Shown: positions 5,297 to 61,860 of the stretch, in pieces | Layout of the letters: each line of letters starts with the position of its first letter | Numbering within the stretch: the first letter of the stretch is position 1 | From: Halorussus ruber | Lineage (GTDB): Archaea; Halobacteriota; Halobacteria; Halobacteriales; Haladaptataceae | Direction of reading: 5' to 3' | Length of the DNA: 64,000 nucleotides | NCBI RefSeq assembly: GCF_004765785.1 | Contig: NZ_SBIT01000002.1 | Coordinates: forward strand, 62,001-126,000 | Notes under the pieces: model-generated | Told to the model about the DNA's origin: nothing | Seen by the model: the letters and a program-made list of their open reading frames with translations, nothing else | The model's database searches: none | Made by a program: the position numbers and the translations under genes

Positions 5297-5521
5297 GTCA
5301 CGAGCGAAGCGAGTGACTGCTCGGCGGACGCGGTTTGTCCGCCGGTGCCTCGTGCCGCGCCATCGGCGTGCGAGGTCTGCACGAGCGAAGCGAGTGCAGG
5401 CTCGGCAGACGCAGTTTGTCTGCCGGTGGACGTGGCCGCCTTGCGCGGCCACGAGGCTGGGGAGGCGTGAGGTCCGCGGTCGCGGTGGCGGTGACTATTT
5501 GGATTCGGCAGTAGCTAGCTC
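5297..5521 (+). repeat. Structured intergenic repeat: two tandem GNA-hairpin/GAC-hairpin modules and a GC-rich tail
   Basis: Gene-free 5009-5624 holds a dense array of hairpins. Module 1 is a hairpin at 5297-5317 (GTCAC / GA / GC / GAA / GC / GA / GTGAC) followed by one at 5322-5344 (8-bp stem CGGCGGAC, loop GCGGTTT). Module 2, 80 bp on, is the same pair at 5377-5399 (6-bp stem CTGCAC/GTGCAG around the same GA-GC-GAA-GC-GA core) and 5403-5425 (stem CGGCAGAC, loop GCAGTTT). The stems differ by compensatory changes. A 9-bp hairpin follows at 5431-5453. The tail (GGGGAGGCGTGAGG to AGTAGCTAGCT at 5510-5520) recurs inverted at 32926-33003. The rest of the gap, 5043-5296 and 5522-5624, shows no gene. 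Confidence 0.75.
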
Positions 5522-5624
5522 TCTCCGTCCTTCAGTCGAGAGTCGTGCCGACCGAACAAATTCTCGGCCCACGCCGTCCCCAGTCACCGAAGGCTACAAG
5601 CGCGCCGCAGTCCAAAATCGCGGC

Positions 5625-6479
5625 ATGCACGTACTGAGCGTGGTCGGCTCCGACGCGGCCGCCAGAGGAGTCGCCGACCGACTGGCGACCCGCCTCGGCG
5701 AGGCGGGGCGCGTCGCGGAGATTCACCGGACCGGAACCGACGCCGAGACCCACGACGAACCCGCGGACGCGAAGTACGAACTCGACTCCGGAGGCTGGTC
5801 GGCGACCGGCCACGAGCGGTCGCTCGGCGCTATTCTAGAGGACCTCGCGCCGCGCTACGACTACGCGCTCCTCGTCGGGTTCCCCGAGGCCGACGTGCCG
5901 CAAGTCGCGGTCGGGAATCCCGAGGCGGTGGACGCCGAGTCGCCGGAGAGCGAACTCACAGAAACCGAATTCGAGGAGTCCGAACCGGCGGGCGAGGTGC
6001 TGGTGCGCGCCGAGAGCGCCGCCGACGTGGACCCCGCCGAGGTCCGGCGACTCCTCGAGGAGACCGACCCCTACGAGACGCTCGAATCGCTCGTCGCCGA
6101 GGTCAAACGGTCCGAGGACGCGCCCTACTCCGGCGCTATCGCCACCTTCACCGGTCGGGTCCGAGCGAAGGAAGACGCCGACGACGAGCCGACAGAACTC
6201 CTCGAATTCGAGAAGTACGAAGGCGTGGCCGAACAGCGCATGGCCGCCATCAGCGCCGAACTGGAGGAGCGCGAGGGCGTCTACGAGGTGGTGATGCACC
6301 ACCGAACCGGCGTCATCGAATACGGTGAGGACATCGTCTTCGTGGTGGTGTTGGCAGGCCACCGCGAGGAGGCCTTCCGGACTGTCGAGGACGGTATCAA
6401 CCGGCTCAAAGACGAGGTTCCGATATTCAAGAAGGAGGTCACGACCGACGAACAGTTCTGGGTCCACGAGCGTTCCTGA
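5625..6479 (+). CDS. moaE: Molybdopterin synthase large subunit MoaE fused to an N-terminal MobB-like domain
   Basis: MoaE with MoaD inserts sulfur into precursor Z to make molybdopterin, the organic part of the molybdenum cofactor. 284 residues from ATG 5625. The N-terminal half (about 1-90) begins MHVLSVVGSDAAARGVA and resembles the MobB-type P-loop region but has no clear Walker A lysine, so it may be a degenerate nucleotide-binding domain. The C-terminal half (about 140-284) is MoaE: GAIATFTGRVR, KYEGVAEQRM, HRTGVIEYGEDIV and the catalytic lysine region VPIFKKEV. The start is fixed by the conserved N-terminus, because upstream codons run through the repeat array. The fusion is common in haloarchaea. 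It stands alone, flanked by gene-free DNA. Confidence 0.88.
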   Translation: MHVLSVVGSDAAARGVADRLATRLGEAGRVAEIHRTGTDAETHDEPADAKYELDSGGWSATGHERSLGAILEDLAPRYDYALLVGFPEADVPQVAVGNPEAVDAESPESELTETEFEESEPAGEVLVRAESAADVDPAEVRRLLEETDPYETLESLVAEVKRSEDAPYSGAIATFTGRVRAKEDADDEPTELLEFEKYEGVAEQRMAAISAELEEREGVYEVVMHHRTGVIEYGEDIVFVVVLAGHREEAFRTVEDGINRLKDEVPIFKKEVTTDEQFWVHERS

Positions 6480-6495
6480 CTGTTTATCTCTTTTT
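6480..6495 (+). terminator. T-rich terminator after moaE
   Basis: TGTTTATCTCTTTTTG starts right after the moaE stop codon. T-runs without a hairpin are the usual archaeal termination signal. Confidence 0.5.
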
Positions 6496-6781
6496 GAAAT
6501 CCGGGTTTCGGAAGGTATGACAAACTTTGTCAGCCCGTGCTGAGACCGTGATTTCTCCGTCGGTGTCAGTCGTTCGCATGACGTTTCCGACGCGATGCTG
6601 AAGCAGGGAAACAAAGAGCTAGAGGCGGTTTTAAACGATAAAAGAGTCGCAGAAAACGTCGTAAAAAGTGATTTTCACCCCATTTTCCCGCCTCGTGTCG
6701 AATCTGCAACCCAAATATTCGGAAAATCACCCTAACCGACTTCCCTTTATATCATCCCCCAACCCCTACGTGGAAACGAAG
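6496..6781 (+). promoter_or_regulatory. AT-rich gene-free stretch with promoter for the following small gene
   Basis: About 290 bp, markedly more AT-rich than its surroundings. A TATA box, CTTTATATC near 6742-6750, lies about 32 bp before ATG 6782 and predicts a nearly leaderless transcript. A short inverted repeat (GACAAACTTTGTC, 6518-6530) is visible upstream. No further ORF is convincing. Confidence 0.5.
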
Positions 6782-7033
6782 ATGAGCGCAACTACCCAGC
6801 CCTCCGACGCCCCCGAACCGCAGTCCAAGGAACAGCGCCTCAAGCAGTTCCTCCGGCGCAAGGCCGAGGACGGGGAGATGTACTTCAAGAGCAAGTTCAT
6901 CGCGGACGAAGTCGGCCTGTCGTCGAAGGAAATCGGCGCGCTGATGGTCAAACTCAAGGACTCGGCCACCGACCTCGAAATCGAGAAGTGGTCGTACACG
7001 AGTGCGACCACTTGGCGGGTCTGCTCGGCGTAA
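6782..7033 (+). CDS. Small winged-helix-like protein, probably the haloarchaeal DUF7123 group
   Basis: 83 residues. After a short Ser/Thr/Pro-rich start, the chain KEQRLKQFLRRKAEDGEMYF, then KSKFIADEVGLSSKEIGALM, has the helix-turn-helix spacing of a small winged-helix domain (helix, turn at LSSKEIG, recognition helix). It could bind DNA, but no ligand or cofactor motif is present. ATG 6782 is supported by a TATA box about 32 bp upstream; the longer frame to 6668 would begin upstream of that TATA and is rejected. It has its own promoter and no operon partner. The family name is from memory; the HTH reading is from the sequence. Confidence 0.72.
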   Translation: MSATTQPSDAPEPQSKEQRLKQFLRRKAEDGEMYFKSKFIADEVGLSSKEIGALMVKLKDSATDLEIEKWSYTSATTWRVCSA

Positions 7034-7216
7034 TCGTCCCAGTCGCGTGCGCTCCAGTCGAATCGTCGCGTGACGCTGTCCGATTGGTCCCTTTTCGGAC
7101 GGTCCCCCTTCTTCCACCCTTCGAACCAACGTCGCCGGACTACACCCTTCCAGACACTTATCTGACACACGACCGGAACCACGCTATTTTTCTCGCGGGG
7201 TCCCGTTGTCCCGGCC

Positions 7217-8311
7217 ATGAACCGGCGCGCGTACCTGCAGTCGCTGGTAGCGGCGGGAGCGGTCGGGACCGCCGGATGTCTGCGCACTGCCGGGAGCGAA
7301 CCCACGACCACGACCGAGGAGGGTCCCCAGTTCCGCATCCAGACCGTCACGATGGAACTGGAGGTGCCGTGGGGGACGGCGTTCGCGCCCGACGGCGACC
7401 TCTATCTCACCGAGCGTCCCGGCCGAGTCCAGCGCGTCGTCAGCGAGAGCAACCGGCAGGAACTGGTCGCCGACCTCACCGACACCGTGGCGGCCCGCGG
7501 CGAGGGCGGCCTGCTGGGGTTGGCTTTCCACCCCGACGATTCCGACTTGGCGTACACCTACCAGACCTACGAGGGCGACGGCGGTCTCGCCAACCGGGTC
7601 GTGCGCCACCGCGTCTCGGAGGACTTCGCGCGCGAGTCGATTATTCTCGACGGGATTCCGGCCTCGTCCATCCACGACGGCGGCCGCATCGCCTTCGGCC
7701 CGGACGGCGCGCTCTACGTCACGACCGGCGACGCGAGCAGGGGCGACCTCGCCCAGGACCGCGAGTCGCTGGCCGGGAAAGTCCTCAGGCTGACCCCCGA
7801 GGGCGAACCACACCCCGACAACCCCTTCGGCAACGCGGTGTTCACCTACGGCCATCGGAACCCGCAGGGGCTGGCGTGGCGGGACGGAACCCTGTTCGTC
7901 ACCGAACACGGCCCCTCGACCGACGACGAAATCAACCTTCTAGAAGCCGGGAACAACTACGGGTGGCCCCAAGCGAAGGGACCGACGGAGGGCGACAAAT
8001 TCACCGACCCCATCGCGGCCTACACGCCCACCATCGCGCCGGGAAGCGCGGCCTTCTACCGCGGCCCCGTCAGCGACTGGGAGGGCGATTTCTTCTTCGG
8101 CACGCTCGCCGGGACGCACCTCCACCGAGTCCGGATAAACGACCGAAACGAGGTTGTCGAGCAAGAGCGCCTCCTCGACGGGAAGTACGGCCGACTCCGG
8201 ACGGTCTTCACCGGGCCGGACGACCACCTCTACGTCACGACGAGCAACCGCGACGGGAGGGGGACGCCCGCGCCTCAAGACGACCGAGTGCTTCGGATTC
8301 AGCCGGTCTGA
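7217..8311 (+). CDS. PQQ-dependent sugar dehydrogenase family, Tat lipoprotein
   Basis: Glucose/sorbosone dehydrogenase-like six-bladed beta-propeller; family members oxidise aldose sugars outside the membrane with PQQ. 364 residues. The N-terminus has a twin-arginine start (NRRAYLQSLVAAGAVGTAGC) ending in a lipobox cysteine near residue 20, so the protein should be exported folded and lipid-anchored. Family motifs seen: VPWGTAFAPDGDLYLTERPG near 50-68, GLLGLAFHPD near 97, HDGGRIAFGPDGALYVTTGD near 153-171, and YGHRNPQGLAW near 212-222. Whether it binds PQQ is not shown; PQQ synthesis genes are not in the window. It has a single-gene layout and converges on the next gene. Confidence 0.88.
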   Translation: MNRRAYLQSLVAAGAVGTAGCLRTAGSEPTTTTEEGPQFRIQTVTMELEVPWGTAFAPDGDLYLTERPGRVQRVVSESNRQELVADLTDTVAARGEGGLLGLAFHPDDSDLAYTYQTYEGDGGLANRVVRHRVSEDFARESIILDGIPASSIHDGGRIAFGPDGALYVTTGDASRGDLAQDRESLAGKVLRLTPEGEPHPDNPFGNAVFTYGHRNPQGLAWRDGTLFVTEHGPSTDDEINLLEAGNNYGWPQAKGPTEGDKFTDPIAAYTPTIAPGSAAFYRGPVSDWEGDFFFGTLAGTHLHRVRINDRNEVVEQERLLDGKYGRLRTVFTGPDDHLYVTTSNRDGRGTPAPQDDRVLRIQPV

Positions 8312-8333
8312 GTTCGGATTCCGGCGGTCCGGG

Positions 8334-9602
8334 TTATTCGCCGCGGAGGACCGCCATTCCGAGTTCGAGGAGGAAGACGACCGCGCACAGCGCCATCCCG
8401 GCGAGCGTCAGCAGTTCCGGAAGTTTCACCCACGCGGGGAAAACGAACGCGGCGTAGGCTTCAGCCTGTTTGAGCGTACTCTGGAGGGTTCCGGTGCCTC
8501 GGTAGCGACTCCGGAGTTCCGTGCCGGGGACCGTCTCGTGGTCCTCCTCGGGAAGCGAGAGTCGGTCTGCGGTGTAGGGCATCTGGACGCCCGAGTACGA
8601 CCAGACGACTCTCCCGCGGTCGTTGATTTCCAGCACGCGGTTGTTGAACGTGTCCACGATGAGCGTGTTCCCGTTGGGCAGGCGGTCGGCGTCCCGCGGC
8701 CAGTGCAGGAGTCCTTTCCCGCCGTACTGCCAGACGATCTCGTTCGTCGTGGCGTTCAACTCGACCACGCGGTCGTTCCCGCTGTCGGCGACCAGCACCG
8801 TGCCGTTCCGGAGCTTGTAGGGGTTGTGCTGTTCGTTCAGGATGGTGTGGTTGCCGGGCTCGCCCACGACGTTCGTGATGTTGTCGGTCTCCGGGTCCAC
8901 TTCGATCACCACGTCGAAGTTCCGAACCGAGAGCTGGAAGTTGCCGTTGTCCAGCTTGTCGATGTCGTTCATGTGCGTCCAGTCGGCCTCCCCGCCGGGG
9001 TCGGGATGGCCGCCGTACTCCTCGTAGAACTCGGTTCCTTGCGCGAGGTGGTTCTCGGCGTGCCACTCCCAGACCACTCCTCCGGACTCGTTCACCACGA
9101 ACGCGCGGTCGTTGCCCATGTCCACGATGGCGGTATTGCCGTTGTCGAGGCGGTCGACGTCGTGGACCTCGTGGTGGGTGATGTACTCGTCGTACCACGA
9201 GTACTCCCAGACGACCTCCTTGGTCTCGTAGTCGAGTTCGAGGACCTTGGCCTCGATGCACTGGTCGGTGTTGACCACGAGGTGTTCGGCGGGGCACTCC
9301 GCGGGCGGGAGTTGGGTCGTCACCGCCACGAGGAAGTTGCCGTTGTCCAACTGTTCGGCGTCGAAGACTCTGGAGTTCGGCGGGTCGAACTCCCAGACGA
9401 CCTCGTTATTTTCGTCCACTTCGAGGAGTTTCCCGTCCAAGCCGTAGCTCTGGACGCTGATGAGGGTGTGGCCCTCGTAGGGTCCTTCCGCAGCCGAAGT
9501 CGCCGAGACGCCCTGCTTGGCGGCCAACCCCTGGGCCCCGAGGACCAGCCCGAGCAGAAGTGCAACCCACGCGAGATACCGCATCCGCCGTCGTCGCTCC
9601 AT
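8334..9602 (-). CDS. Arylsulfotransferase (ASST)-like beta-propeller protein, membrane-anchored
   Basis: 422 residues: signal/anchor helix at about 8-26, a repeat-rich domain (blades with the recurring patterns DRLDNGN, KLDNGNF, RLPNGNTLIVD, each near an aromatic ligand-like residue), and a C-terminal membrane helix near 393-412. Repeated 'LDNGN' motifs with HDVD and DWTHMNDIDKL match the haloarchaeal arylsulfotransferase-like family. True sulfotransfer activity is not established for these homologues. A TATA-like CTTAAT on the minus strand near 9627-9632 predicts a leaderless start at ATG 9602; an alternative ATG is at 9584. A paralogue starts at 63119 and shares the DWTHxNDxDK segment. Confidence 0.8.
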   Translation of the reverse strand: MERRRRMRYLAWVALLLGLVLGAQGLAAKQGVSATSAAEGPYEGHTLISVQSYGLDGKLLEVDENNEVVWEFDPPNSRVFDAEQLDNGNFLVAVTTQLPPAECPAEHLVVNTDQCIEAKVLELDYETKEVVWEYSWYDEYITHHEVHDVDRLDNGNTAIVDMGNDRAFVVNESGGVVWEWHAENHLAQGTEFYEEYGGHPDPGGEADWTHMNDIDKLDNGNFQLSVRNFDVVIEVDPETDNITNVVGEPGNHTILNEQHNPYKLRNGTVLVADSGNDRVVELNATTNEIVWQYGGKGLLHWPRDADRLPNGNTLIVDTFNNRVLEINDRGRVVWSYSGVQMPYTADRLSLPEEDHETVPGTELRSRYRGTGTLQSTLKQAEAYAAFVFPAWVKLPELLTLAGMALCAVVFLLELGMAVLRGE

Positions 9603-9734
9603 ACACGTGCCTGTCTCCTCGGTGGATTAAGGGCTGCCGGTCTCGGTCGAAAGAGGCGAATCGACGGCCATCGACTCCGTCGCTCGGCCCGGACCGACAG
9701 AAGAGCAAAGTACCATGATACCGTATGACATGAT

Positions 9735-10007
9735 ATGGGCGTTTGGGGCTGGATAGTACTCTACGTACTCCTGTTCTCCCTGCTCCAGTTGCTCATCTAC
9801 CGATACCTCCGGAGCGACGAGGACGCGCCGCTGTTCCGCTCGACGCCGCCGAACCGGGAGACGGCCGCCATCGAGGAGGTTCGAGAACTGGAGGACCGAC
9901 ACCGGAGCGACGACCCCGCGGTGGTGGTCTGTCCGCGGTGCGGCACGGAGAACGAGACGGGATTCACCTACTGCCGGAGTTGCGTGAGTCCGATGACGGC
10001 ACGGTGA
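9735..10007 (+). CDS. Small membrane protein with C-terminal zinc ribbon
   Basis: 90 residues. One N-terminal membrane helix (WGWIVLYVLLFSLLQLLIY), an acidic linker, and a C-terminal zinc ribbon CPRCGTENETGFTYCRSC (CxxC, 10 residues, CxxC). The layout is common in haloarchaea (DUF7577-like from memory) and suggests a membrane-tethered ribbon facing the cytoplasm. It is divergent from the arylsulfotransferase-like gene, with a 132-bp AT-rich spacer holding both promoters. Function unknown. Confidence 0.78.
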   Translation: MGVWGWIVLYVLLFSLLQLLIYRYLRSDEDAPLFRSTPPNRETAAIEEVRELEDRHRSDDPAVVVCPRCGTENETGFTYCRSCVSPMTAR

Positions 10008-10100
10008 GAGGCCGGGAATCGAACCGGGAGCGTCGCGCCGGGGGCGACTACCGTCGAGTAACGACAGTCCTTTCTCGCTCGCCCCCGACTCAGTACCCGA

Positions 10101-10799
10101 ATGCCCCGCGCAGTCGCTATCAACGTCGGAGCCAACACCAACGCGCCCGGCGTCCGCGGTCCCATCTACCCGGACGGTTCGTTCGAGTTCGTGCCCATCC
10201 CCGAGGAGGCCCCGACCAGCGAACCCGTGCCGACCTACGCCGACCTGAATCTCGATACGGAAGTTCCGGCAGACGCAATCGACTCGCCGGTCCACTTAGA
10301 CCCGGAGTTCGCAGAGTATCCCGAGTGCGAATCGTACACCTACGGCGACCCCTACGGCGTGAAGGCCCGACCCCTGCTGGACCTCCGCGAGGGCGACTAC
10401 GCGCTGTTCTACGCCACGCTGACGACCCGCGGAACGCCCGAGCGAGAGTGGATTGCCCCCGACTGGGGCGCGTACCTCGTCGGGCAGTTCCGACTGGCGC
10501 GCGACCCGGTAGACGCCGAGGAGTACCGCGACCTGCCGGACGACGAGCGAGCGCGCTTCAGGTCCAACGCCCACGTCAAGCGCGAGGAGTTCGACGCCGC
10601 AGTGCTACTGCGAGGCGACGACGGCGAGTCGGGCCTCTACGAGACGGCGGTCCCGCTGAGTTCCCCCGAGAAGGGGTCGGAGGCGAACCGCGTCGTGACG
10701 GACCTGTCGAGCGACTCCGGCAAGGGACCGTGGTGGCGACGACCGATGAAGTTCGATGCGACCGCGACGGAGGAGGTTTTGGAATTGGCAAAGAAATAA
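10101..10799 (+). CDS. Nmad3-like protein (putative nucleotide modification associated domain 3)
   Basis: 232 residues, soluble, no signal. The opening has a conserved-looking strand (AVAINVGANTNAPGVRGPIY) followed by a PDGSFEFVPIPE segment, then a central LLDLREGDYALFYATLTT region, QFRLARDP, and a Lys-rich end. This order (start motif, 'P-I-x-P-D-G-x-x-x-x-x-P-I-P', then a 'GD-x-x-x-F-Y' strand) is what I recall of Nmad3, a domain predicted to act in DNA or RNA base modification. No modification enzyme adjoins it; the next features are a hairpin repeat and a lipoprotein. It could equally be a general nucleotide-binding protein. The call rests on remembered motifs. Confidence 0.55.
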   Translation: MPRAVAINVGANTNAPGVRGPIYPDGSFEFVPIPEEAPTSEPVPTYADLNLDTEVPADAIDSPVHLDPEFAEYPECESYTYGDPYGVKARPLLDLREGDYALFYATLTTRGTPEREWIAPDWGAYLVGQFRLARDPVDAEEYRDLPDDERARFRSNAHVKREEFDAAVLLRGDDGESGLYETAVPLSSPEKGSEANRVVTDLSSDSGKGPWWRRPMKFDATATEEVLELAKK

Positions 10800-10865
10800 A
10801 ATCCTATTTTTAGGAAATAGAATTGTTTCTTTCGGGCGTTCGGATGCGCTTGGCTGACCAACCGG

Positions 10866-11070
10866 TGGGGTGGGATGAAGGGGCCGCCCGGTCGCGGTCA
10901 CGCGAGGGAACCGAGCGTGACCGCGACCGGGCGGGGGCTTCAAGAAAACATCACAACGAGGGTACTGCTGTTCGTGGTTCTACTCACACCGAGACAAAGC
11001 GGGCGAGGGCTTCAAGAAGACACCACGACCCTCATTCTGCGGTTCGGAGTAGCGGTTACACCGAAAGGTC
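10866..11070 (+). repeat. Compact copy of the structured repeat, plus a 72-bp tandem duplication of its right flank
   Basis: Terminal GAAG (10877-10880) and CTTC (10938-10941) bracket a 19-bp perfect stem (10885-10903 with 10915-10933) closed by the GA-GG-GAA-CC-GA loop (10904-10914). This is the shortest full copy of the family, 65 bp. Downstream, the right flank starting GGGCTTCAAGA is repeated imperfectly: unit 1 from 10935 and unit 2 from 11007, period 72 bp. The gene-free stretch 10800-11153 contains nothing else except the promoter of the next gene. Confidence 0.8.
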
Positions 11071-11153
11071 TGGTGCTGACTTCTCACAGTCGTACTAAAA
11101 CGGATGTCCGAACCACCCACAAGGCACTTTAGCGACGACACGAACCACACCTC

Positions 11154-11843
11154 ATGTCGAGGCTCGCGGTCGTGGCGCTACTCGCCTGCCTTCTCCTCGC
11201 CGGATGCAGCGGACCGCTGGGCGAGAGTACCACGACCGACGCGGAGACGACCGCGAACGCGACCAGAGCAATCGCCGCGCCGGTTTCCGAGACCGGAGTG
11301 ACCGAGACGACCGAAGCGACCGGTGAATCGACCACCGAGCAGACCGCGACCAGTGCTACGTCTGCCGAGGAGACCGCGGCCGAGGAAACGGCCGCCGACG
11401 AGACAGTCGCCGAAATCGAGGAAGCCAGCGCGTCCGGCGGAACCGCCGGGGTTGATGCCGCCGAAGTCACTACTCGGACCGCCCCGCCCGAGACGACCAA
11501 CGGGACCGCGACGAATCAGACCACCACCGAGACCTACGAGCGCAACATGCCCTACGAGGTCCGCGTCTCGAACTCCGGGACGGCCCACCGGAACATCACG
11601 GTCAGCGTCACGGCCGTAAACGACTCCGTCGCCGTGTTCGAGGTCTCGACGCGATTCGCACCGAACGAGACCCGCGAGTTCGACTTCACCGTCGCCGACC
11701 CCGGCGAGTACGAGGCCCGAGTCGAAGTCGAGGGGAGCGTCACGACGAAGCGGTGGGACATCGAAACGCGGGACCCCAAGCGGGCGCTCTCGGTCCACGT
11801 CTCCTCGGACGGGAGAGTCTACGTCGGCTTCCTCGATATTTGA
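11154..11843 (+). CDS. Lipoprotein with Thr/Glu-rich linker and Ig-like C-terminal domain
   Basis: 229 residues. Signal peptide with lipobox (CLLLAGCSG, Cys near residue 19), then a long low-complexity linker of Thr, Glu and Ala (about 25-125) likely to be glycosylated or extended, then a compact beta-rich domain (about 127-229: EVRVSNSGTAHRNITVSVT, RFAPNETREFDFTVADPGEYEARV) resembling CARDB/DUF-type immunoglobulin folds. The predicted place is the outer face of the membrane. It is preceded by repeat DNA and has its own promoter. The function is unknown; such proteins often bind extracellular ligands or act as surface spacers. Confidence 0.75.
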   Translation: MSRLAVVALLACLLLAGCSGPLGESTTTDAETTANATRAIAAPVSETGVTETTEATGESTTEQTATSATSAEETAAEETAADETVAEIEEASASGGTAGVDAAEVTTRTAPPETTNGTATNQTTTETYERNMPYEVRVSNSGTAHRNITVSVTAVNDSVAVFEVSTRFAPNETREFDFTVADPGEYEARVEVEGSVTTKRWDIETRDPKRALSVHVSSDGRVYVGFLDI

Positions 11844-12113
11844 GTTCCACCTACACTAACGTCGCCTGATACGATTTCCCCACTATTCTCGAATAGAGAG
11901 GTTCTTCAGCAATTGTCGATTGGAGCCGATAGAAATCGTCGTGTGCTTTTTAGCCTCCTCCCGGCGACGGTGTTCGGAGTCGCTGGGAATCTGATTCAAG
12001 ACCTCGCGTATCTGGTTCTCGACCCACGGACAGACACGGAATGAAGGTCGCACTTTTTAGAAGCGAACGTCGGGAACAGAACTTTCATCTGTACCTCGGA
12101 AAATCGTATTCGC

Positions 12114-13361: not shown

Positions 13362-13376
13362 CTCGTTCGACAGAAA

Positions 13377-48854: not shown

Positions 48855-49008
48855 AGGTTTCGAAAGCCCTCGCGCGGTTCTCGGTCGCTCAGCGACATAT
48901 CCGGGCGCGCAGAACTGCGCGCCCGGATAGTTCTGCGCGCCCGGATAGGGGTCGGCTGAGACGACTCAACTGGACGCGAACCGCGCTCGCCCTTTCAGTC
49001 CACCAGGA
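48855..49008 (-). repeat. Copy of the structured repeat family with a 15-bp palindrome
   Basis: Gene-free 48785-49080. Same ends as the copy at 28537-28680. Inside, 48898-48912 pairs with 48915-48929 (TATCCGGGCGCGCAG/CTGCGCGCCCGGATA); CTGCGCGCCCGGATAG then repeats directly at 48915-48930 and 48933-48948, an 18-bp period, as if half of the palindrome had been copied again. Confidence 0.72.
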
Positions 49009-53425: not shown

Positions 53426-53431
53426 TTTGCC

Positions 53432-54511: not shown

Positions 54512-54601
54512 ATGGCACGCGAACAGCGAACTCAGACGGGGTGGACGAACGAGAGGGAGCAAACGAACAAGACGAACCGAACCGGCGAGGTAGGACGATG
54601 A
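54512..54601 (+). CDS. Short upstream ORF coupled to the LEA-like gene
   Basis: 29 codons (starts MAREQRTQTGWTNEREQTNK, ends VGR) whose TGA overlaps the ATG of the next gene by 4 bp (ATGA at 54598-54601). A TATA-like ACTTACTTAG near 54479-54488 lies about 25 bp before ATG 54512, so the transcript would be leaderless and begin with this ORF. Composition is hydrophilic, with no known motif. It could be a leader peptide that controls translation of the large gene, or simply a spacer. Confidence 0.5.
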   Translation: MAREQRTQTGWTNEREQTNKTNRTGEVGR

Positions 54602-56421
54602 GTCTGGTCGGCGGCACGCTCGGCAAAATCGGAGCGGTTCTGCTGGCAGGACTAGTCGTCTCGGCCGCAGGAGTCGGCGCGGCGGTCTCGACCGGCGTCG
54701 TCAGTCTCCAACCGCCCGCGGTCGAATCGGTCGAGAACGAGTGGGGCGAAGTGACGAAGGACGAGACCCAGATTCGGACGACAGTCGTGATGGACAACCC
54801 GAACAAAGTGGGCGTCCCGGGGGCCGCCAGCGTCACCTACGACGTGACGATGAACGACGTGACGATGGCAGAGGGGTCCAGCGGCGGCCTCTCGCTGTCG
54901 CCCGGTCGGAACGAAATCGCGCTGAAGACCGGCATCGACAACGAGAAGATTCCGGCGTGGTGGGCCAGCCACATCAACAACGGCGAGGAGACAACCCTCT
55001 CGGTCGAACCCTCGGCGAAGGTCGCCTTCGTCTCGAAGGGCCTGCCGTCGTTCGACCGCACCTTCGAGACAGACATGCTCTCGTCGTTCGACAGTCAGTC
55101 GGGCCAGTCGGTGCAGGTGGGCAACCGGACCCTGCTGACCGTCGAGGAGACCGAAGCGTCGTGGGGCCACGCGACCGAGGACGAGACGCCCCTCCGGTTC
55201 GCCGGAACGGTCCACAACCCCAACAGCGCGCCCATCACGTTCTCGAAAATCGGCTACGAGGTGTCGATGAACGACGTGACGGTGGCCGAGGGGACCACCG
55301 AGGGCGGCGTCGAGATTTCCGCGAACTCGACCGACACCATCCGAATCAACTCGACGCTGGACAACGGAAAGCTGGACGAGTGGTGGGTTAGCCACCTGAA
55401 CCGGGGCGAGCGGACCGACCTGAACGTCTCGGTGTTCGCCGTGGTCGAGGGCGAGGAGGGGACCCAGCGAGTCCCCCTGCCCTTCCTGAGCCAGCGCGTC
55501 GCGTTCGAGACCGACATTCTGGGCGGCGGAACCGCGACGACTCGCGCACTCGGCCCGCCGGGCGAGGAGAAGGGCCTCGGGGCCAGCCCGCCGCGAGTCG
55601 TCTCCATCGACCGCGACTGGGCCGCGACCGACTCGGGCACGCGATTCACCACGACCGTCGTCGTGGACAACCCCAACGCGGCGGATTCGCACCTCGGCAA
55701 CGTCTCGCTCGACGCGACCTACCGGGTGAGACTCAACGGGATGACGCTGATTCAGGACAGCCAAGAGACGACGCTCACGCCCGGCAGAAGCGAACTCACG
55801 GTCTCGAAGGGCGTTAGCGACGCCGCCATCCAGCGGTGGTGGATGAGCCACGTCCGGAACGGCGAGCGGACGAAGCTGACCACCGAGGGCCGGGCGCTCG
55901 CCGACCTCGGATTCGCCGAGGTGCCGGTGCCGCTCCCCAAGCAACACCAGACCTTCGAGACCGACATGCTCTCGGGCCTCCGGACGGGTAGCGAGACCGT
56001 CACGGTCCGCGGGCGGACGCTCGCCAAACTCCACGGCGTGAGCGCCGAGTGGGGCGAACCCACGATGAAGCGGACGCCGATAGCAATCGACGGGAAGGTG
56101 ACGAACGAGCGCGACGGCGAGCTGACCGTCAAGCGACTCGGCTACGAAATCGAGGCCAACGGCGTGGTGCTGGCCGACGACGAGACGAACGTCGGAACCA
56201 CGATTCCGGGCAAATCGACTCGCGCGATTTCGGCGACCGCGGGCCTCGACAACCAGCGAATCGACGACTGGTGGGTCAGCCACCTGACCAACGGCGAGGA
56301 GTCCGACCTCTCGGTCTCCTACTACGCCGTGGTGGAGTACCGCGGCAACCAGTTCACGGTCGAACTCGACTCGATGAGCTACGAGAAGACCATCGAGACG
56401 AGCGCCTTCGGTAGCACGTAG
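54598..56421 (+). CDS. Four-repeat LEA14/WHy-like membrane-anchored protein
   Basis: 607 residues. N-terminal membrane helix (IGAVLLAGLVVSAAGVGAAVS, about 11-31), then four LEA14-type immunoglobulin-like repeats of about 140 residues. Each has a start like ENEWGEVTKDET or SAEWGEPTMKRT, a VMDNPN/VHNPN/VVDNPN strand (degenerate KVTNERD in repeat four), and a closing WWxSHxxNGE block at about 121, 261, 421 and 561. The family (water stress and hypersensitive response domain) is tied to desiccation tolerance. Exposed outside the membrane by topology. The ATGA overlap with the short ORF upstream suggests coupled translation. Confidence 0.85.
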   Translation: MSLVGGTLGKIGAVLLAGLVVSAAGVGAAVSTGVVSLQPPAVESVENEWGEVTKDETQIRTTVVMDNPNKVGVPGAASVTYDVTMNDVTMAEGSSGGLSLSPGRNEIALKTGIDNEKIPAWWASHINNGEETTLSVEPSAKVAFVSKGLPSFDRTFETDMLSSFDSQSGQSVQVGNRTLLTVEETEASWGHATEDETPLRFAGTVHNPNSAPITFSKIGYEVSMNDVTVAEGTTEGGVEISANSTDTIRINSTLDNGKLDEWWVSHLNRGERTDLNVSVFAVVEGEEGTQRVPLPFLSQRVAFETDILGGGTATTRALGPPGEEKGLGASPPRVVSIDRDWAATDSGTRFTTTVVVDNPNAADSHLGNVSLDATYRVRLNGMTLIQDSQETTLTPGRSELTVSKGVSDAAIQRWWMSHVRNGERTKLTTEGRALADLGFAEVPVPLPKQHQTFETDMLSGLRTGSETVTVRGRTLAKLHGVSAEWGEPTMKRTPIAIDGKVTNERDGELTVKRLGYEIEANGVVLADDETNVGTTIPGKSTRAISATAGLDNQRIDDWWVSHLTNGEESDLSVSYYAVVEYRGNQFTVELDSMSYEKTIETSAFGST

Positions 56422-56549
56422 TGGAACGGGTGGAACAGGGAACCCCGCCACACCACCGTCAAACCACCAGACTACCACCCCACCACACACCGTCACACAC
56501 CACCGACAGCGATTTTTGACGGGGACGAGTCGAACCGAGACGGAGAGTC

Positions 56550-56999
56550 ATGCCTGAAGTCCGCGAGCTATCGCCCGAGGACGCGCCGGAACTGGTCGCG
56601 CTCTACGAGGAGTACGAATGGTGGGAGGACCGCGAGGAGGCGGGAGTCCGCGAGGCGCTGGCCGCGACGGAGGTCGCGCTGGGAGTGCAAGCAGACGGCG
56701 ACCTCGTGGCCGCGGCGCGAGTTCTGACCGATTACAACTACTACGCCACGGTCTTCGACGTGATTGTCGCGGCCGACCGGCGAGGCGAGGGCCTCGGCGA
56801 GACGCTGATGGAGGCGCTACTCGACCACCCCGACTTGCAGTCCGTGCCGGGCCTCTCGCTCCTCTGTCGGGAGGGGTTGGTGGGGTTCTACGAGTCGCTG
56901 GGCTTCGAGGTGTTCGGCCCGGAGTTCGAGGTGCCGGAGGGCGGCACGGAGGAGTTGGTCCGGATGACCTACGCCCACGACGACGAGTCTGATTCGTAG
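56550..56999 (+). CDS. GNAT-family N-acetyltransferase
   Basis: 149 residues. EVRELSPEDAPELVALYEEYEWW opens the fold; the acetyl-CoA site is VFDVIVAADRRGEGLGETLMEALLDHP near 69-95 (R-R-G-E-G-L-G, motif A), then GLSLLCREGLVGFYESLGFEVFGPEF near 104-129. The substrate is unknown. Monocistronic. Confidence 0.9.
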   Translation: MPEVRELSPEDAPELVALYEEYEWWEDREEAGVREALAATEVALGVQADGDLVAAARVLTDYNYYATVFDVIVAADRRGEGLGETLMEALLDHPDLQSVPGLSLLCREGLVGFYESLGFEVFGPEFEVPEGGTEELVRMTYAHDDESDS

Positions 57000-57113
57000 G
57001 CGAGAACTCTGATTCTGTCCGCGAAAACCACGGTAGCCGAGCGCCCACCACCCGGCGGGCGCTCGGCCGACCAACCGACAGGAATGCACTCAGCCAATCA
57101 AACCACCGTTTGG

Positions 57114-57350
57114 GTGGATGAAGGGGCCGCCCGGTCGCGCCAGAGGCTTGGTCGCTGGTCGGCCCCTATCCGAGGTCGGGCGGTGTCTCACCGAACGGAG
57201 TGAGGTGATGGCTCGGAAGACGCGGTTCGTCTTCCGGTGCGGAGAGACCGAGGATATGCCGACCAGCAACCGCCGGAGGACAAACCGCGTCCTCCGAGGT
57301 CTCGTTCGCTCCGCTCACGAGACCGCGACCGGGCGGGGCTTTCTAAAACA
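57114..57350 (+). repeat. Second large multibranched copy of the structured repeat (224-bp core)
   Basis: Core 57120-57343. Outer stem: 12 bp, 57128-57139 with 57324-57335. Second stem: 57154-57162 with 57259-57267. Third: 57167-57177 (TATCCGAGGTC) with 57246-57256, perfect apart from a central tandem G-A pair. Arms: 57188-57208 (TCACC-GA-AC-GGA-GT-GA-GGTGA), 57214-57236 (CGGAAGAC, loop GCGGTTC), 57274-57296 (CGGAGGAC, loop AAACCGC), 57298-57324 (8-bp stem; minus strand reads GA-GC-GGA-GC-GA). The same inner order as the copy at 32111, but the extra hairpin pair is on the right and inverted. It fills most of gene-free 57000-57464. Confidence 0.85.
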
Positions 57351-57464
57351 ACATCATAGACTTGTTCTCCGTGGTACAGGTTCTACTTCTTGAACTCGCA
57401 CCCCAAAGAACACATCATCCCCAGTAAAGCAGACTTTTCCTCACCCCCGCCCAAATCTCAGACC

Positions 57465-57596
57465 ATGAGTTGGGACGACCTCTTCGAGCGCGCCGAGGAG
57501 TACGAGACCGACGTCGAGACGATACGCGAGCGACTGGCCGCCCATCGAGAAGACGAGACGACCGAGAGCGACGAGCAGGAGGCCGACGATGCCTGA
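57465..57596 (+). CDS. Small acidic protein paired with the PIN-like protein
   Basis: 43 residues, almost all charged: SWDDLFERAEEYETDVETIRERLAAHREDE forms one amphipathic helix, followed by an acidic tail. It overlaps the PIN-like gene by 8 bp, so the two are translated together. The layout resembles a toxin-antitoxin operon, but the protein has no DNA-binding motif; it may be a helical cap. Start chosen at ATG 57465; the upstream frame is repeat-adjacent and non-acidic. Confidence 0.65.
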   Translation: MSWDDLFERAEEYETDVETIRERLAAHREDETTESDEQEADDA

Positions 57597-58068
57597 GACG
57601 CCGGAAACCAATCCGGCCCGCATCGTCGCTGATGCCGACGTCCTCGTCGCGGACCTCCTCGTCGGCGGACCGGCACGCGAGGCGATGGACGATATTCGGA
57701 GCCACTCGTGGGTCGAACTGGTCGCCAGCGACGCCCTCCTCGAGGACGCCGAGGAGGTAATTCGAGAGTTGGCCGACGAGGACCTCGCCGCGGCGTGGCG
57801 CGAGGAAATCGAGGCCCTGCGCGTCGAAGTCGAGCATCCCGAGGGCGACCACCCCGCCCTCGCCAGCGCGTACCGGTCGCAGGCCGCCCACATCCTGAGC
57901 TACGACGAGGGCCTGCGGAGCGCCGAGGCCAGCGCGGCGTTCGGGTCGCGCCTGAACGTCAGCGTCAAGACGCCCGCCGGGTTCGCGGGCCTGTTCGACG
58001 CCGCGTCGCTCTACGAGGCGGTCGAGGACGGCGAGTATCCGGGACCGGACCGGGACCCGCGAAAGTAG
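57589..58068 (+). CDS. PIN-domain-like protein (DUF7384-like)
   Basis: 159 residues. RIVADADVLVADLLVGGPAREAMDDI near 11-36 carries the first PIN acidic residue (DADVL), WVELVASDALLEDAEEVIREL follows, and SYDEGLRSAEASAAF near 103-117 carries the C-terminal Asp (hILSYDEGL, as in PIN 'h-h-T-x-D'). The middle acidic residues are less clear. PIN proteins are Mg-dependent RNases. Co-transcribed with the small acidic gene. A housekeeping role is as likely as a toxin role, as this pair is widespread in haloarchaea as far as I recall. Confidence 0.75.
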   Translation: MPETPETNPARIVADADVLVADLLVGGPAREAMDDIRSHSWVELVASDALLEDAEEVIRELADEDLAAAWREEIEALRVEVEHPEGDHPALASAYRSQAAHILSYDEGLRSAEASAAFGSRLNVSVKTPAGFAGLFDAASLYEAVEDGEYPGPDRDPRK

Positions 58069-58281
58069 CCCTCTCGTCGCGCTGGCGCTTTCGAGTAGTT
58101 TTACATTTCCTAAAGACAGGGGTAGTTGTCTTATCAATCGTTCTGGAAGGTTCGCTATCGAATCCACGATAGAACAGACAACCGTGTTACAGAACGCGAT
58201 TCCAGTAACGTCGACTACAGAAATATAGTTCAGATTACACTTTTGGGGTCGTGGTTCCTATCTACACGTGAGGAAAGACCG

Positions 58282-58563
58282 ATGAAACTCTACACCACGC
58301 TTCGGCGGGTCGCGCCAGCGACTCGGGCCGAACACGGCCGCATCGCTTCGGTTCTCACCCGCTTCACGCTCCCGCTCGCCACGCTGCTGTCGCTGGTGGC
58401 GTCGGCCCTGCTGACCGGCGCGACGTTCGCCACCGCGGCGGAGTTGGTCCCGATGACCGTCCCGACCCTGCTCGCTGGCTGGGTCGCCGCCATCGGCGCG
58501 ACGTTCGCACTCCCGCTGTTGGTCGTCCGCGGCGTGACCGCGGCGCTCGAACGACTCCAATAA
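58282..58563 (+). CDS. Small two-helix membrane protein
   Basis: 93 residues: a basic N-terminus (KLYTTLRRVAPATRAEHGR), two membrane helices (about 28-52 and 57-84), and a short tail. A TATA-rich stretch (AAATATAGTTCAGATTACAC) lies upstream. GAGGAAAG, ending 6 nt before ATG 58282, is a possible ribosome-binding site. No recognisable family. Monocistronic. Confidence 0.7.
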   Translation: MKLYTTLRRVAPATRAEHGRIASVLTRFTLPLATLLSLVASALLTGATFATAAELVPMTVPTLLAGWVAAIGATFALPLLVVRGVTAALERLQ

Positions 58564-58648
58564 GCGAATTGTTTTCGCGCCCGACGTGTCGCAGTGCGTC
58601 GAAAATTCTTATCGCGTTCGCCGATGCAGATTCGTGCGGGGAGATAGC

Positions 58649-58945
58649 ATGTGTCACAGACGCGGCGAGTGGTCACGAACGTCCAGCAGAGCCAGCGAAC
58701 CCGAGGAGGACCCCGACGAGAACTCGGCGTGGGTCGGCGCGCGAGCGAAGGACCTCCTCGTGACGTTCGTCTCGGGTGACGCCGACGAGACGCCGGAGCG
58801 CGAGAAACCCGAGGCTCCGACAATCGAGGCCGAGCCGGAGACACCCGAAACCGACCCGAAGACCCCGAGCGCAGACCCGACCGAGGTCGAGGAGGACGCC
58901 GAGGAACCAGAGCGCGAGGAGGACCCCATCTCGGCCGACGACTAG
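58649..58945 (+). CDS. Acidic low-complexity small protein
   Basis: 98 residues. A short Arg-rich start, a middle helix (SAWVGARAKDLLVTFVSG), then a Glu/Pro/Thr/Asp tail of about 50 residues that must be disordered. ATG 58649 is preceded by GGGGAGATAG. No family recognised. The frame has haloarchaeal acidity, which supports that it is real; the opposite-strand frame is only a shadow of it. Confidence 0.6.
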   Translation: MCHRRGEWSRTSSRASEPEEDPDENSAWVGARAKDLLVTFVSGDADETPEREKPEAPTIEAEPETPETDPKTPSADPTEVEEDAEEPEREEDPISADD

Positions 58946-59026
58946 CGATGTTTCTTTTTCGGGGTTCTGTACGGTCGTCGTAAAATAGAGGTGCTTTTAG
59001 GGATTCCTGTCTAGAATCAAAGAGAA

Positions 59027-59125
59027 ACGTTTCTTGAAGCCCCGCCCTGTCGGGTTCCCCGCCGAGCGCAGCCTCGTGGACGGTTCCACCGAGCGCGTCC
59101 CGGCGGTCGGTCCCACCGAGCGCGA
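59027..59125 (-). repeat. Right-end fragment of the structured repeat with tandem CCACCGAGCGCG units
   Basis: On the minus strand GGGCGGGGCTTCAAGAAACG (59028-59047) is the family right end. Next to it, the plus strand has GTTCCCCGCCGAGCGCAG, GTTCCACCGAGCGCGTC and GTCCCACCGAGCGCGAC (59054-59125), three related units; the last also occurs at 18227-18240. No left end is recognisable, so this is a truncated copy directly upstream of the DUF5787 gene. Confidence 0.6.
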
Positions 59126-59157
59126 CGTTTTTCTCCTCCGGGTCCCGAGTCGAGGAC

Positions 59158-60120
59158 GTGCGCGAGTATCCCTTCGAGTTGACGCTGTGCGCGCACCTCG
59201 AAGCCACCGAGGAGGCCATCGTCGCCCGCCAAATCGGCGGCGGCGTCCGAGCGCCCGCTAATCGCGTCCTCGACGTGGTCTGCGTCGAACCCGGCCCGGC
59301 GATGGCCGACCGGGCGGGCCTGACGCCCGAGACCATCCCCGACGCGGCAATCGAGAGCGAAGTCGGCGTCGGTCGAGCGCGCGACCCCGTCGAAGCAATC
59401 GACGCCTCGCCCGAACACGCCCGCCGAGTCGCCGAGCGCGCGGTCGAAATCGGCTTCTTCGAGCGCGCGGTCGGCGGGGGCGTCCGGCGGGTCGCCCGGT
59501 ACCCCGACGACTGGTTCGAGCGCATCGTCGCCGTCGAGAACAAGCCCGACTTGGGCGACCCCGGCGACCTCGAACTCCAACTTCGGAAGGACGCCGCGCT
59601 CGCGCTGGCCGACGAGGTCGCGCTGGCGACCGAGAGCTACGTCACCGGCGCGCACCTCAACCGGATTCCCGACTCGGTCGGCGTCTGGCGCTTTCACCCC
59701 GAGACCGGCGAGCGCGAGGAGATACGGGAGGCGACGCCCCTCTCCGCCGACGAGTCGGGCGTCGAGATTCTCTCCGAACACCCCCTGCGGACCGACGTGG
59801 CGCTCGTCTCGGCCGCCGAGAAGGCCCGTCGCCGCAGACGGATGGCCGAGGTCGCCTACGGCAAGGGCTGGCGGCCCGACGCCTTCCCCGCCTGCGCCGA
59901 GGCCGAGTCGGTCGAGCGCGAGGGGAGCGCCGGACTGCCCTACTGCGCGTGGAAGGGGCGATTCGTCAACCCCGCGACCTGCGGACCGGACTGCCCCGGC
60001 CACGACCCCGCCGACCCACCCGAAACCGACCATGATGAGGCCCGAGACGGTCGAACGCCGTGGGTCGCCGACCCCGAAGGGAAGGCGAGGCGGCAGTCGG
60101 GCCTCGACAGATTCGGGTGA
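59158..60120 (+). CDS. DUF5787 protein, possible PD-(D/E)XK Fe-S nuclease
   Basis: 320 residues, GTG start. Recognised as the haloarchaeal DUF5787. What can be seen: an early Cys in FELTLCAHLE (residue 11); ARYPDDWFERIVAVENKPDL near 119-138, which fits PD-x9-ExK of the PD-(D/E)XK nuclease fold, followed by a helix (ELQLRKDAALALADEVALAT); and a C-terminal Cys group (CAEAESVERE, YCAWKG, ATCGPDC) near 265-300. One early Cys plus three or four late Cys around a PD-(D/E)XK core is the layout of Cas4/AddB-type Fe-S nucleases. No Cas or recombination gene adjoins it. The nuclease reading is inference; the family assignment is firmer. Confidence 0.75.
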   Translation: MREYPFELTLCAHLEATEEAIVARQIGGGVRAPANRVLDVVCVEPGPAMADRAGLTPETIPDAAIESEVGVGRARDPVEAIDASPEHARRVAERAVEIGFFERAVGGGVRRVARYPDDWFERIVAVENKPDLGDPGDLELQLRKDAALALADEVALATESYVTGAHLNRIPDSVGVWRFHPETGEREEIREATPLSADESGVEILSEHPLRTDVALVSAAEKARRRRRMAEVAYGKGWRPDAFPACAEAESVEREGSAGLPYCAWKGRFVNPATCGPDCPGHDPADPPETDHDEARDGRTPWVADPEGKARRQSGLDRFG

Positions 60121-60189
60121 GTTCGGCGGAACGGAAGCGAGTTCTGCCCCACGGGAGCGTTTTTCTGTCTCAACGTCGAACGGAGGGGT

Positions 60190-60831
60190 ATGTACGACCG
60201 AATTCTGGTCCCGACCGACGGAACCGACCAGACCCCCGTGGTCGAACAGGCGCTGAACGTGGCCGAACTCGCCGACGCGACGGTCCACGCCCTCTACGTG
60301 GTCAACGAGAAGGCGCTGGACTACCAGCCCTCGGAGTCCGGCCGGAAGAAGACCCGCGACGCCCGACGCGAGGAGGGTGAAGAAGCGACCGCCGAAATCG
60401 TCGAGAAGGCCGAGGAGAGAGGTCTCGACGCCGTCACCGCCATCGAGGAGGGCAAGCCCGCCGCGACAATCGTGAACTACGCAGACGACGAGCAGATGGA
60501 CATGGTCGTGATGGGAACTCACGGTCGGTCGGGCGTGGACCGCTACGTCCTCGGGAGCGTGACCGAGCAGGTCGTCCGCAAGTCCGAGACCCCGGTGCTG
60601 ACGGTCAACCTCGCGCGCCAGCGCCGCGCGGTCCGGGACGACGAGACCGCAATCGAGCGCGCTCGGCAGGTGCTGGCCGACGAGGGCCACGAGGTCGCCG
60701 AGGTGCCCGAGGACCCCTACCGCGAGAGCAACACGTGGATAGTCCGCACCGAGACCGCGTCCGGCGAGACCTACAACGTCCACATCGACGCCGCCTCCGG
60801 CGAGGCCCGACTGGCCCGCATCGGGCGGTGA
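60190..60831 (+). CDS. Universal stress protein with C-terminal PepSY-like extension
   Basis: 213 residues. Usp domain about 1-145: YDRILVPTDGTDQTPVVEQAL; MDMVVMGTHGRSGVDRYVLGSVTEQVVRKSETPVLTVN (the ATP loop G-x2-G-x9-G-S is intact). A C-terminal 60-residue part (DPYRESNTWIVRTETASGETYNVHIDAASGEARLARIGR) looks like one small beta-alpha unit similar to PepSY. The fusion is common in haloarchaea. Monocistronic. Confidence 0.9.
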   Translation: MYDRILVPTDGTDQTPVVEQALNVAELADATVHALYVVNEKALDYQPSESGRKKTRDARREEGEEATAEIVEKAEERGLDAVTAIEEGKPAATIVNYADDEQMDMVVMGTHGRSGVDRYVLGSVTEQVVRKSETPVLTVNLARQRRAVRDDETAIERARQVLADEGHEVAEVPEDPYRESNTWIVRTETASGETYNVHIDAASGEARLARIGR

Positions 60832-60971
60832 GGTCGGACGCTGTTCTCCGCCCACAGATAGATATTCAATTGTTTAGAAAATATCCTGATTATTAGGGGC
60901 GTAGATAGTCATGTCCCCTCGCCTGTCAATCCGCCCCGGAGTATTTCACGCTGGCCGGTGAACGCCGGGAC

Positions 60972-61628
60972 GTGCCAGCGGCAGTCGTCCTCGCGGGCGG
61001 TCGCTCGACGCGGTTCGGCGAGGAGGACAAGGCAGTCGCCGACCTCGCGGGCGTCCCGATGATTCGCCGGGTGGCCGACCGCCTCTCGTCGGTCGTGGAC
61101 GTGCTGGTGGTCAACTGCCGGGCCGACCAGCGCGCCGCTATCGCGGACGCGCTCTCGGGCTACGACCGCCCGGTCCGGTTCGCAATCGACGCCGACCCCG
61201 ACGAGGGACCGATGGCGGGTATTCGGACCGGTCTCCGCGAAGTCGAGGCCACTGATTCCGAGTACGCCTTCGTCGCGGCCTGCGACATGCCCTTCCTCGA
61301 CGCCGACCTCGTCGCGCACCTCTTCGAGTCCGCCCGGAGTCCGAGCGAGGTCGCGGGAACCGACGACGCCACAGGGGCCTACGACGCCGCTGTCCCGCGA
61401 CCCACCGAGTGGTTCGAGACCACTCACGCGGTCTACCGCGCGGGACCGATGGCCGACGCCTGCGACGGGGCGCTGGCGGCGGGCGAGCGCAAAATCATCG
61501 CCCCCCTCTTCGAGTTGGACTTCGTCGCGGTCGGCGAGGAGGACCTCGACGAGTTCGATACGGATAGTTTCGAGAGCGTCGATACGCCGGAGGAGTTCGC
61601 GGCGGCCGAAGAGCGTCTGGGAGGGTGA
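60972..61628 (+). CDS. mobA: Molybdenum cofactor guanylyltransferase
   Basis: Adds GMP to molybdopterin to make MGD, needed by DMSO-reductase-family enzymes such as nitrate reductase. 218 residues, GTG start. AAVVLAGGRSTRFGEEDKAVADLAGVPMIRRV near 3-34 is the nucleotide-binding signature (L-A-G-G-x-S-x-R-x-G-x-x-K); DEGPMAGIRTGLR near 77-89 and AACDMPFLDADLV near 99-111 follow (metal-binding Asp). An AT-rich promoter region is upstream (60860-60900). Not linked to moaE or the transporter in the window. Confidence 0.92.
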   Translation: MPAAVVLAGGRSTRFGEEDKAVADLAGVPMIRRVADRLSSVVDVLVVNCRADQRAAIADALSGYDRPVRFAIDADPDEGPMAGIRTGLREVEATDSEYAFVAACDMPFLDADLVAHLFESARSPSEVAGTDDATGAYDAAVPRPTEWFETTHAVYRAGPMADACDGALAAGERKIIAPLFELDFVAVGEEDLDEFDTDSFESVDTPEEFAAAEERLGG

Positions 61629-61689
61629 TTTCGGGAGTTCTCAGATACGAGTCCCAACCACGGACTTCGCTCGGTGGACCGAACAACCG

Positions 61690-61860
61690 CCTTGGCGGAC
61701 TGAAAGGGCGACCGCCGGAAGTCAACCCGCGTCTTCCGAGGTGTTGCAAATCAAAGATTTGCCACATCACGAAAATCTCCGATTTTCGAAGACTGCACTC
61801 GCTACGCTCGCGCAGCCCTCGCGCGGTTCGGCGCGCTCACGCGAGAGCGCGCCAGCACGC
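61690..61860 (+). repeat. Degenerate copy of the structured repeat with AT-rich hairpins
   Basis: Gene-free 61629-61895. The left end is GGCGGACTGAAAGGGCGACCGC (61695-61716), as at other copies. Hairpins: 61716-61738 (CGGAAGTC/GTCTTCCG, one mismatch), 61746-61762 (GCAAATC-AAA-GATTTGC, perfect), 61770-61788 (CGAAAATC-TCC-GATTTTCG, perfect; GGA triloop on the minus strand), 61794-61814 (GA-GC-GTA-GC-GA core on the minus strand). The end GCCCTCGCGCGGTTC (61815-61829) is the family right-end sequence inverted. Two stems are AT-rich, unusual in this GC-rich genome. Confidence 0.72.

Follow-up and report, generated by a model that had tools for sequence, protein, structure and literature searches.

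Copies of a hairpin element in the window

The window, a stretch of 64,000 nucleotides of Halorussus ruber DNA (contig NZ_SBIT01000002.1, positions 62,001 to 126,000) whose draft genome comprises 31 contigs and 4.32 Mb, carries between its genes several copies of a hairpin-built element, here called E. A sequence-only reading of the window had taken these for at least six copies of a single intergenic family, and the proposal of one family is confirmed by an excess of left ends, in that TGAARGGGC occurs six times in the window, once at each copy then claimed (0.55 expected; none of 100 shuffles reaches six), and by a covariance model from 21 copies elsewhere in the genome, which recovers five of the six. 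The number of copies holds for left ends, present at all six, and not for whole elements, as the copy at 61695 has a left end only, with no right end within 400 nt and no match to the covariance model. The frame of E, GGA-TGAAAGGGCGA ... GAGGGCTTTCGA and variants, surrounds a branched hairpin with stems P1, P2 and P3, and within E may also be found a separate two-hairpin module of about 55 nt, here called M. The copies and modules of the window are listed below, with model scores in brackets.

10872..10946, + strand: E copy of subfamily B, shortened form in which P1 encloses one hairpin (25.6 bits); beyond it, at about 10991-11019, is another right end, degenerate in sequence
28538..28672, - strand: E copy of subfamily A, simple form P1-P2-P3 (117.7 bits), with a G.G mismatch in the left P1 arm that is common to a sublineage of copies
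32106..32344, + strand: E copy of subfamily B carrying two M modules, the first between P1 and P2 and the second in the apical loop of P3 (52.8 bits)
48857..49001, - strand: E copy of subfamily A, simple form (102.6 bits)
57119..57343, + strand: E copy of subfamily B; one M lies in the loop of P3 and another, inverted, in the right arm of P1/P3 (21.7 bits for a match at 57137-57273, + strand)
57270..57320, - strand: module M, inverted, within the right arm of the preceding E copy (57119)
61701..61830, + strand: degenerate E, with a left end, then an M-like fragment and further hairpins, and no right end
5297..5347, + strand: module M outside E, a hairpin with a GAGCGAAGCGAG loop and a hairpin GGCGGAC-GCGGTTT-GTCCGCC
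5377..5428, + strand: second module M outside E, with the stem GGCAGAC/GTCTGCC

The covariance model, R1, rests on 21 A-type copies and on a structure assigned by us, and was kept to subfamily A, since joint alignments of A and B were out of register in the P1 arm; copies of subfamily B and shortened copies score low because of this. The changing stems at 5322 and 5403 (CGGCGGAC/CGGCAGAC), previously counted as an example from the family, belong to M and not to E proper.

Frame, fold and covariation

Across the genome the left end of A type (TGAARGGGCGASCGCGGTTCG) is matched 99 times with up to 3 mismatches, and its reversed pattern once; for the left end of B type (GGATGAAGGGGCCGCCCGGTCGCG) the counts are 115 and 0. 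A right end lies downstream at each of the 60 loci examined around the best left ends. From the alignments, the simple form begins with a 5' flank bearing small hairpins, followed by GGYGGA-n-TGAARG, a G-rich internal loop (GGCGA opposite GAGGG, or GGGC opposite GGGG), P1 of 11-12 bp, P2 as a small and optional hairpin, and P3 as a long hairpin with an almost invariant asymmetric internal loop (CCNCTAT opposite ATAT), and it ends with the closing P1 arm, GGGCTTTCGA or GGGCTTCAAGA, and a 3' tail of about 45 nt, in which many copies hold a second, degenerate right end. The conserved ends of the earlier proposal are thus real, and E as judged by eye extends past them on both sides, into the 5' flank and the 3' tail. 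Also by eye, the flank hairpins are tandemly repeated in some loci with a period of about 27 nt, and at L037, L032 and L059 such units (CCGCCAGCGAACGCYCGRCTGACCAA-like) stand immediately upstream of E. The apical loops of P3 occur in many copies in inverse orientations (GCAGTTCTGC and GCAGAACTGC), as if flipping.

Four copies take the expected shape when folded as RNA, either strand giving z-scores between -5.5 and -7.7, and in all four the plus-strand fold is the more stable; folded as DNA, three copies reach -5.0 to -6.9. A search of the window against Rfam 15 at gathering score returned two tRNAs only, and four other loci searched at E-values up to 1 returned nothing. The suggestion that the element had not been described agrees with this lack of an Rfam family and with the literature at the level of titles and the starts of abstracts, where no description of E was located, subscription papers lying outside that scope.

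That pairing is kept while stems change, as the sequence-only reading had claimed from a few copies, is borne out by 54 distinct matches from other genomes, in which 94.7% of the cells pair and 30 of 42 pairs have changes on both sides. The covariation score of 0.360, for an alignment fitted to the model and with related rows that are not independent, compares with 0.101 in 500 shuffles, none of which was as high, and with at most 0.051 when partners were slid. Entire stems are rewritten with pairing retained, both between genomes and between copies within one genome; in G022, for example, 28 copies hold eight P1 sequences, with perfect complementarity in 27 and one G-T pair in the other. Part of this covariation can come from exchange of whole well-paired interiors rather than from point mutation, so that it shows the pairing to be kept and does not tell the process. 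If E is indeed mobile, it cautions that covarying stems are not a mark of RNA genes alone, since a family that moves and has differing interiors within one frame can produce them too.

An excess of G-T over A-C pairs on the modelled strand, together with a sense bias between co-directional genes, points to a preferred strand of E, folded as RNA or as single-stranded DNA. Other genomes have 53 G-T and 19 A-C pairs and the host 100 and 70, in a structure-fitted alignment that may favour G-T pairs, and the host excess is uneven, with 28 G-T at one pair and 26 A-C at another; helices 1, 2 and 4 in other genomes give 31:12 (hand count, p 0.005). Between co-directional genes E reads with the genes in 42 cases and against them in 22 in the host (p 0.017) and in 24 and 8 elsewhere (p 0.007), or 66:30 when pooled (p 0.0003), for copies that are not fully independent and with genes from our own caller, trained on the window.

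Spread, filled and empty sites, and differing interiors

The number of copies swings widely between relatives. The Halorussus scan scored 150 candidates per genome, so that its top value is a floor, and gave at least 145 R1 matches in the host and 96, 95, 94, 82, 71, 68, 61, 50, 41, 36, 26, 25, 11, 9, 6, 1 and 0 in 17 other genomes of the genus. With 8 candidates scored in each, 105 of 391 genomes of the class and 38 of its 86 genera have a match, and in a sample of the phylum 13 of 294 genomes do, all 13 of the same order, the genomes without a match being listed in part. Matches are thus found far beyond the host with their stems conserved, where copies confined to one genome with no stem conservation would have spoken against the family. 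Exact matches to the conserved part of E come mainly from Halorussus species, with Halopiger and a Halobacteriales metagenome bin in addition, and a phage collection gave no match to the one window copy tried against it for viral carriage.

None of 166 scored copies overlaps a called gene (173 distinct copies, 119 of the host and 54 others, less 7 at locus ends), and 29 of 115 host copies lie between divergent genes. Copies are found between convergent, divergent and co-directional genes alike, and the nucleoid or transcription boundary that had been suggested is not supported; a role as terminator was rejected for the same mixture of contexts. Ten neighbouring proteins that were scanned are unrelated.

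Empty and filled forms of the same site can be compared in relatives. At the 28.5 kb site of the window the gap of five congeners with the same gene order holds no E, and at the 32.1 kb site four of five relatives have none and the fifth a minimal E with tail (both by eye), while a sixth, G018, has no frame motif there. At a locus of the genus labelled g6, with both flanking genes aligned, E is present in 8 species and absent in 3, in a count that leaves out G395, and G039 has other DNA there without the frame motif. The inverted ends of E are supplied by P1, and the breakpoints of the empty sites are not alignable. Such empty sites, and the absence of an open reading frame in any copy among 169 sampled left ends, bear out the earlier suggestion of a passive element resembling a miniature inverted-repeat transposable element; an autonomous copy with a reading frame between the ends was sought in that same sample and rejected.

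The g6 locus also shows different interiors in the same frame, namely type 1 (P2/P3) in G120, G340, G061 and G373, an unrelated type 2 (AAGCACYGC ... GCRCARCGAG) in G093 and G152, and a reduced interior in G256 and G267; in all, type 2 occupies five Halorussus frames and two g6 frames, each of the seven distinct. Host copies fall into size classes of 34 nt (n=20), 46-71 (n=8), 100-136 (n=89), 162-191 (n=31), 215-283 (n=17) and above 283 nt (n=2), and the steps of about 55 nt fit insertion of M. This module can follow the left arm of P1, lie within the loop of P3, stand inverted in the right arm or be nested in another M. These size classes were used in place of a pattern count of M, which over-counts (at least four of the listed matches by chance). 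The core-deleted form TGAAAGGGCGACCGCGAACCGCGCGAGGGCTTTC, 34 nt long, is identical at 15 places (L136, L141, L160, L174, L176 and others) with its junction, by eye, at a GCGA direct repeat, and so appears to be either a recurrent precise deletion or a mobile short form.

A plasmid block and the possible mobilisation of E

A blastn search with the Halopiger copy matched 19 plasmid records of four genera, 18 without an annotated feature under the match and one with a hypothetical protein there. On 11 of 12 distinct Haloarcula plasmids E lies 486-627 nt upstream of the annotated start of a divergent gene, here X, and in four of those 11 a type IV secretion gene is within about 5 kb. Gene X encodes 348-383 amino acids in the four cases translated, of which three have OB-fold Pfam matches below cut-off, and it has no match among solved structures. 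As exceptions, Haloarcula pHsi204 has E without X, and E on a Salinibaculum plasmid has an unrelated neighbour. A profile of X has 31 matches in 16 of 18 Halorussus genomes, and 15 of 30 X loci there have an R1 match (E-value up to 0.01), all on the same side and all divergent, at 548-743 nt measured from the end of the profile match and not from the gene start, two of the 15 being identical over 2.4 kb. Neither X locus of the host has a match to the E model. Of six further plasmids with X, Natrinema pJ7-1 and a Halorientalis plasmid (at 1.1 kb) have E and four are without it.

Between X and E lies a conserved and structured region, here N, whose motif is found in 21 of the 30 Halorussus loci under a position limit (22 in a looser count, one of these being the type 2 motif of E itself) and also in Halobacterium, Natrinema and Halorubrum plasmids. 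Two of the four E-less plasmids keep N (Halobacterium pHS2 and Halorubrum), and two have neither. Loci with N include the following.

L336 (Halobacterium salinarum pHS2), L337 (Natrinema pJ7-1) and L339 (Halorubrum): region N on plasmids
L308, L309, L313, L314, L318 and L329: examples of region N at Halorussus X loci

On haloarchaeal plasmids N appears as roughly 300 hairpin-rich nucleotides upstream of an OB-fold-like 'DNA-binding protein' gene, and at the loci tested it has no significant Rfam match, weak snoRNA-type matches staying below gathering score. Of 139 E bodies and 24 N regions compared, 41 and 10 have loops of GGTGCGGAGAG type and 12 and 5 the GCAACYACGTCCG loop, with mononucleotide shuffles as the only control; N and E also share an exact match of 24 nt, and a third loop type is found in 25 E bodies and in none of the 24 N regions. 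Leading regions of conjugative plasmids hold single-stranded promoters or initiation hairpins, and the likeness to the present block, with hairpins beside a gene of single-strand-binding type on plasmids, some of which have type IV secretion genes, is one of position only.

The most economical reading is that E is a transposase-free family of mobile hairpins with exchangeable parts, non-autonomous and living between the genes of Halobacteria in the manner of REPIN, ERIC and SMR elements, and to this we give a probability of roughly 0.6. It is built on the fold and its covariation, the swings in copy number, the intergenic location, the empty and filled orthologous sites, the different interiors at one locus, the size steps and the orientation bias, all of which were observed; mechanism, transcription and function we infer. 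The conserved unit would be the frame with its G-rich internal loop, closing a long P1 around a branched interior (an optional P2 and a long P3), with stems whose sequence may change so long as pairing holds, and copies would have spread to differing extents by lineage, trading interiors and apical hairpins, with the smaller M modules sitting inside E. The form acted on is probably RNA or single-stranded DNA of the strand carrying the frame in the present direction. The interiors that differ at one locus would be due to exchange and not to two hits on it, and an enzyme acting in trans, presumably not a Y1 transposase, would move E. The block X - N - E is the best lead to that mobiliser and a candidate home of E, in which X, an OB-fold-like DNA-binding protein, or its plasmid machinery might act on E. 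A bolder version, which we think doubtful, is a system of hairpin cassettes in which E is a fixed frame that trades interiors and apical hairpins with N and across the hundreds of copies in chromosomes. The plasmid block would be the source and would also supply the cognate machinery, working on the folded single strand while plasmids are transferred or replicated, and the chromosomal copies would be its dispersed targets; if true, E would belong to a mobile system that works on single strands and has no Y1 transposase.

Several results weigh against a mobile family, or against particular routes of its spread. Neither a transposition event nor a precise boundary or target duplication could be made out, the intergenic DNA of relatives being too diverged to align breakpoints, and the sampled left ends gave no autonomous copy. 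The best identity between copies within a genome is mostly 80-95% over about two thirds of the length, so that there is no sign of a very recent burst. Host copies share P1 mismatches, such as G.G at one pair in 19 rows, and there are sublineages with fixed P1 mismatches. The 85 copies on the main contig of G022 have no chromosome-scale strand clustering (p 0.37 and 0.20), which disfavours lagging-strand targeting, and IS200-like insertion with a lagging-strand or replichore bias was rejected on these copies. Numbers of E are uncorrelated with those of Y1 genes (rho 0.18, p 0.48) and of X (rho -0.27, p 0.27), G017 having four X genes and a single E match and G019 two X genes and no E match, and X as a sufficient driver of E copy number was rejected on this ground.

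The ERIC elements of enterobacteria are, like E, imperfect palindromes between genes, with a length of about 127 bp. Their copy number varies from species to species (PMC10969869). In a comparison made by description only, they differ in belonging to another domain of life, and E has inserted modules and differing interiors in one frame. Closer to home is SMR-A of Haloquadratum, about 110 bp long, transposase-free and in up to 54 copies per genome, which in the portion of PMC3119063 that treats it has prominent inverted repeats and a mobilisation left unexplained, as E does (again by description and not by sequence); SMR-A inserts into PATE/IS605 palindromes (PMC3119063), and in the present family the nested part is M, lying within E. 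PATEs and other IS200-IS605 derivatives share with E the want of a transposase, the near-terminal hairpins and the core-deleted forms, and differ in being described as without inverted terminal repeats and in their association with Y1. The bacterial REPIN/RAYT system is alike in its high-copy intergenic elements, with conserved ends, a variable spacer with compensating arms and a hairpin as the presumed moving form; E differs in its branched interior and in its longer frame and flanks.

It is with such Y1 enzymes that a first alternative would have E moved, as a REPIN or PATE-like element served by an IS200/IS605 or RAYT transposase. Conserved ends around a variable, compensating hairpin spacer are found in E as in the REPINs of PMC3116915, in the part of that source drawn on here, and the identical 34-nt copies resemble the PATE core deletions of PMC3119063, likewise from a partial account. 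PF01797 is however unmatched in six Halorussus genomes (G011, G013, G014, G015, G018 and G021) that have 82, 96, 26, 61, 71 and 36 E matches, where a transposase may since have been lost, R1 matches nothing in the flanks of the host's seven Y1 loci, and in the excerpt of PMC6006769 the IS200 type is the only Y1 subclass reported from archaea. Y1 or RAYT mobilisation was therefore rejected as a general explanation, E is not placed among the RAYT-type REPINs for want of a Y1 gene in those six genomes, and we consider this alternative very improbable, although E may still work in a REPIN-like way.

That E might instead be a functional RNA element of transcripts, as a signal for processing, stability or translation or as a small RNA, spread through its usefulness, seems unlikely to us. 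The sense-strand bias, the G-T excess and the more stable plus-strand folds would all suit it, as would a TATA-like box about 265 nt upstream of the pNG500 copy, but the G-T excess has the unevenness and the alignment effect given above, copy number runs from 0 to 145 within one genus, about a quarter of host copies have divergent genes on their two sides, a setting in which transcripts should be scarce, and the neighbouring proteins scanned are unrelated. A further alternative, to which we give little credence, would make E a plasmid function, such as a transfer origin or a site of single-strand initiation or replication beside X, copied into chromosomes by plasmid integration and recombination. 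The fixed distance and orientation to X on the Haloarcula plasmids, the type IV secretion genes of four of these, and the same layout at half of the Halorussus X loci, on pJ7-1 and in Halorientalis would fit, but of the six further X plasmids two have N without E and two have neither, pHsi204 and the Salinibaculum plasmid carry E without X, and both host X loci are without a match to the E model.

Should the reading as a mobile hairpin family be right, some 150 loci of one salt-loving archaeon hold a structured element that has no Rfam family and is almost unannotated on the plasmid records examined. How archaeal hairpin elements multiply without the transposase that explains the bacterial ones would become testable, and the question would be linked to a conserved plasmid gene, X, and to a second structured region without Rfam match.

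Two further features may be added. A second repeat, around GAGCTAGCTACT/AGTAGCTAGCTC, forms an inverted pair in the window at 5482-5521 and 32925-32964, and a GAAGCTAGCTTCAGGCTTGAG repeat related to it stands just downstream of many E copies elsewhere in the genome, though not so in the window. The gene beside the 10877 copy, at 10101-10799 of the window, matches Nmad3, a nucleotide-modification-associated domain.

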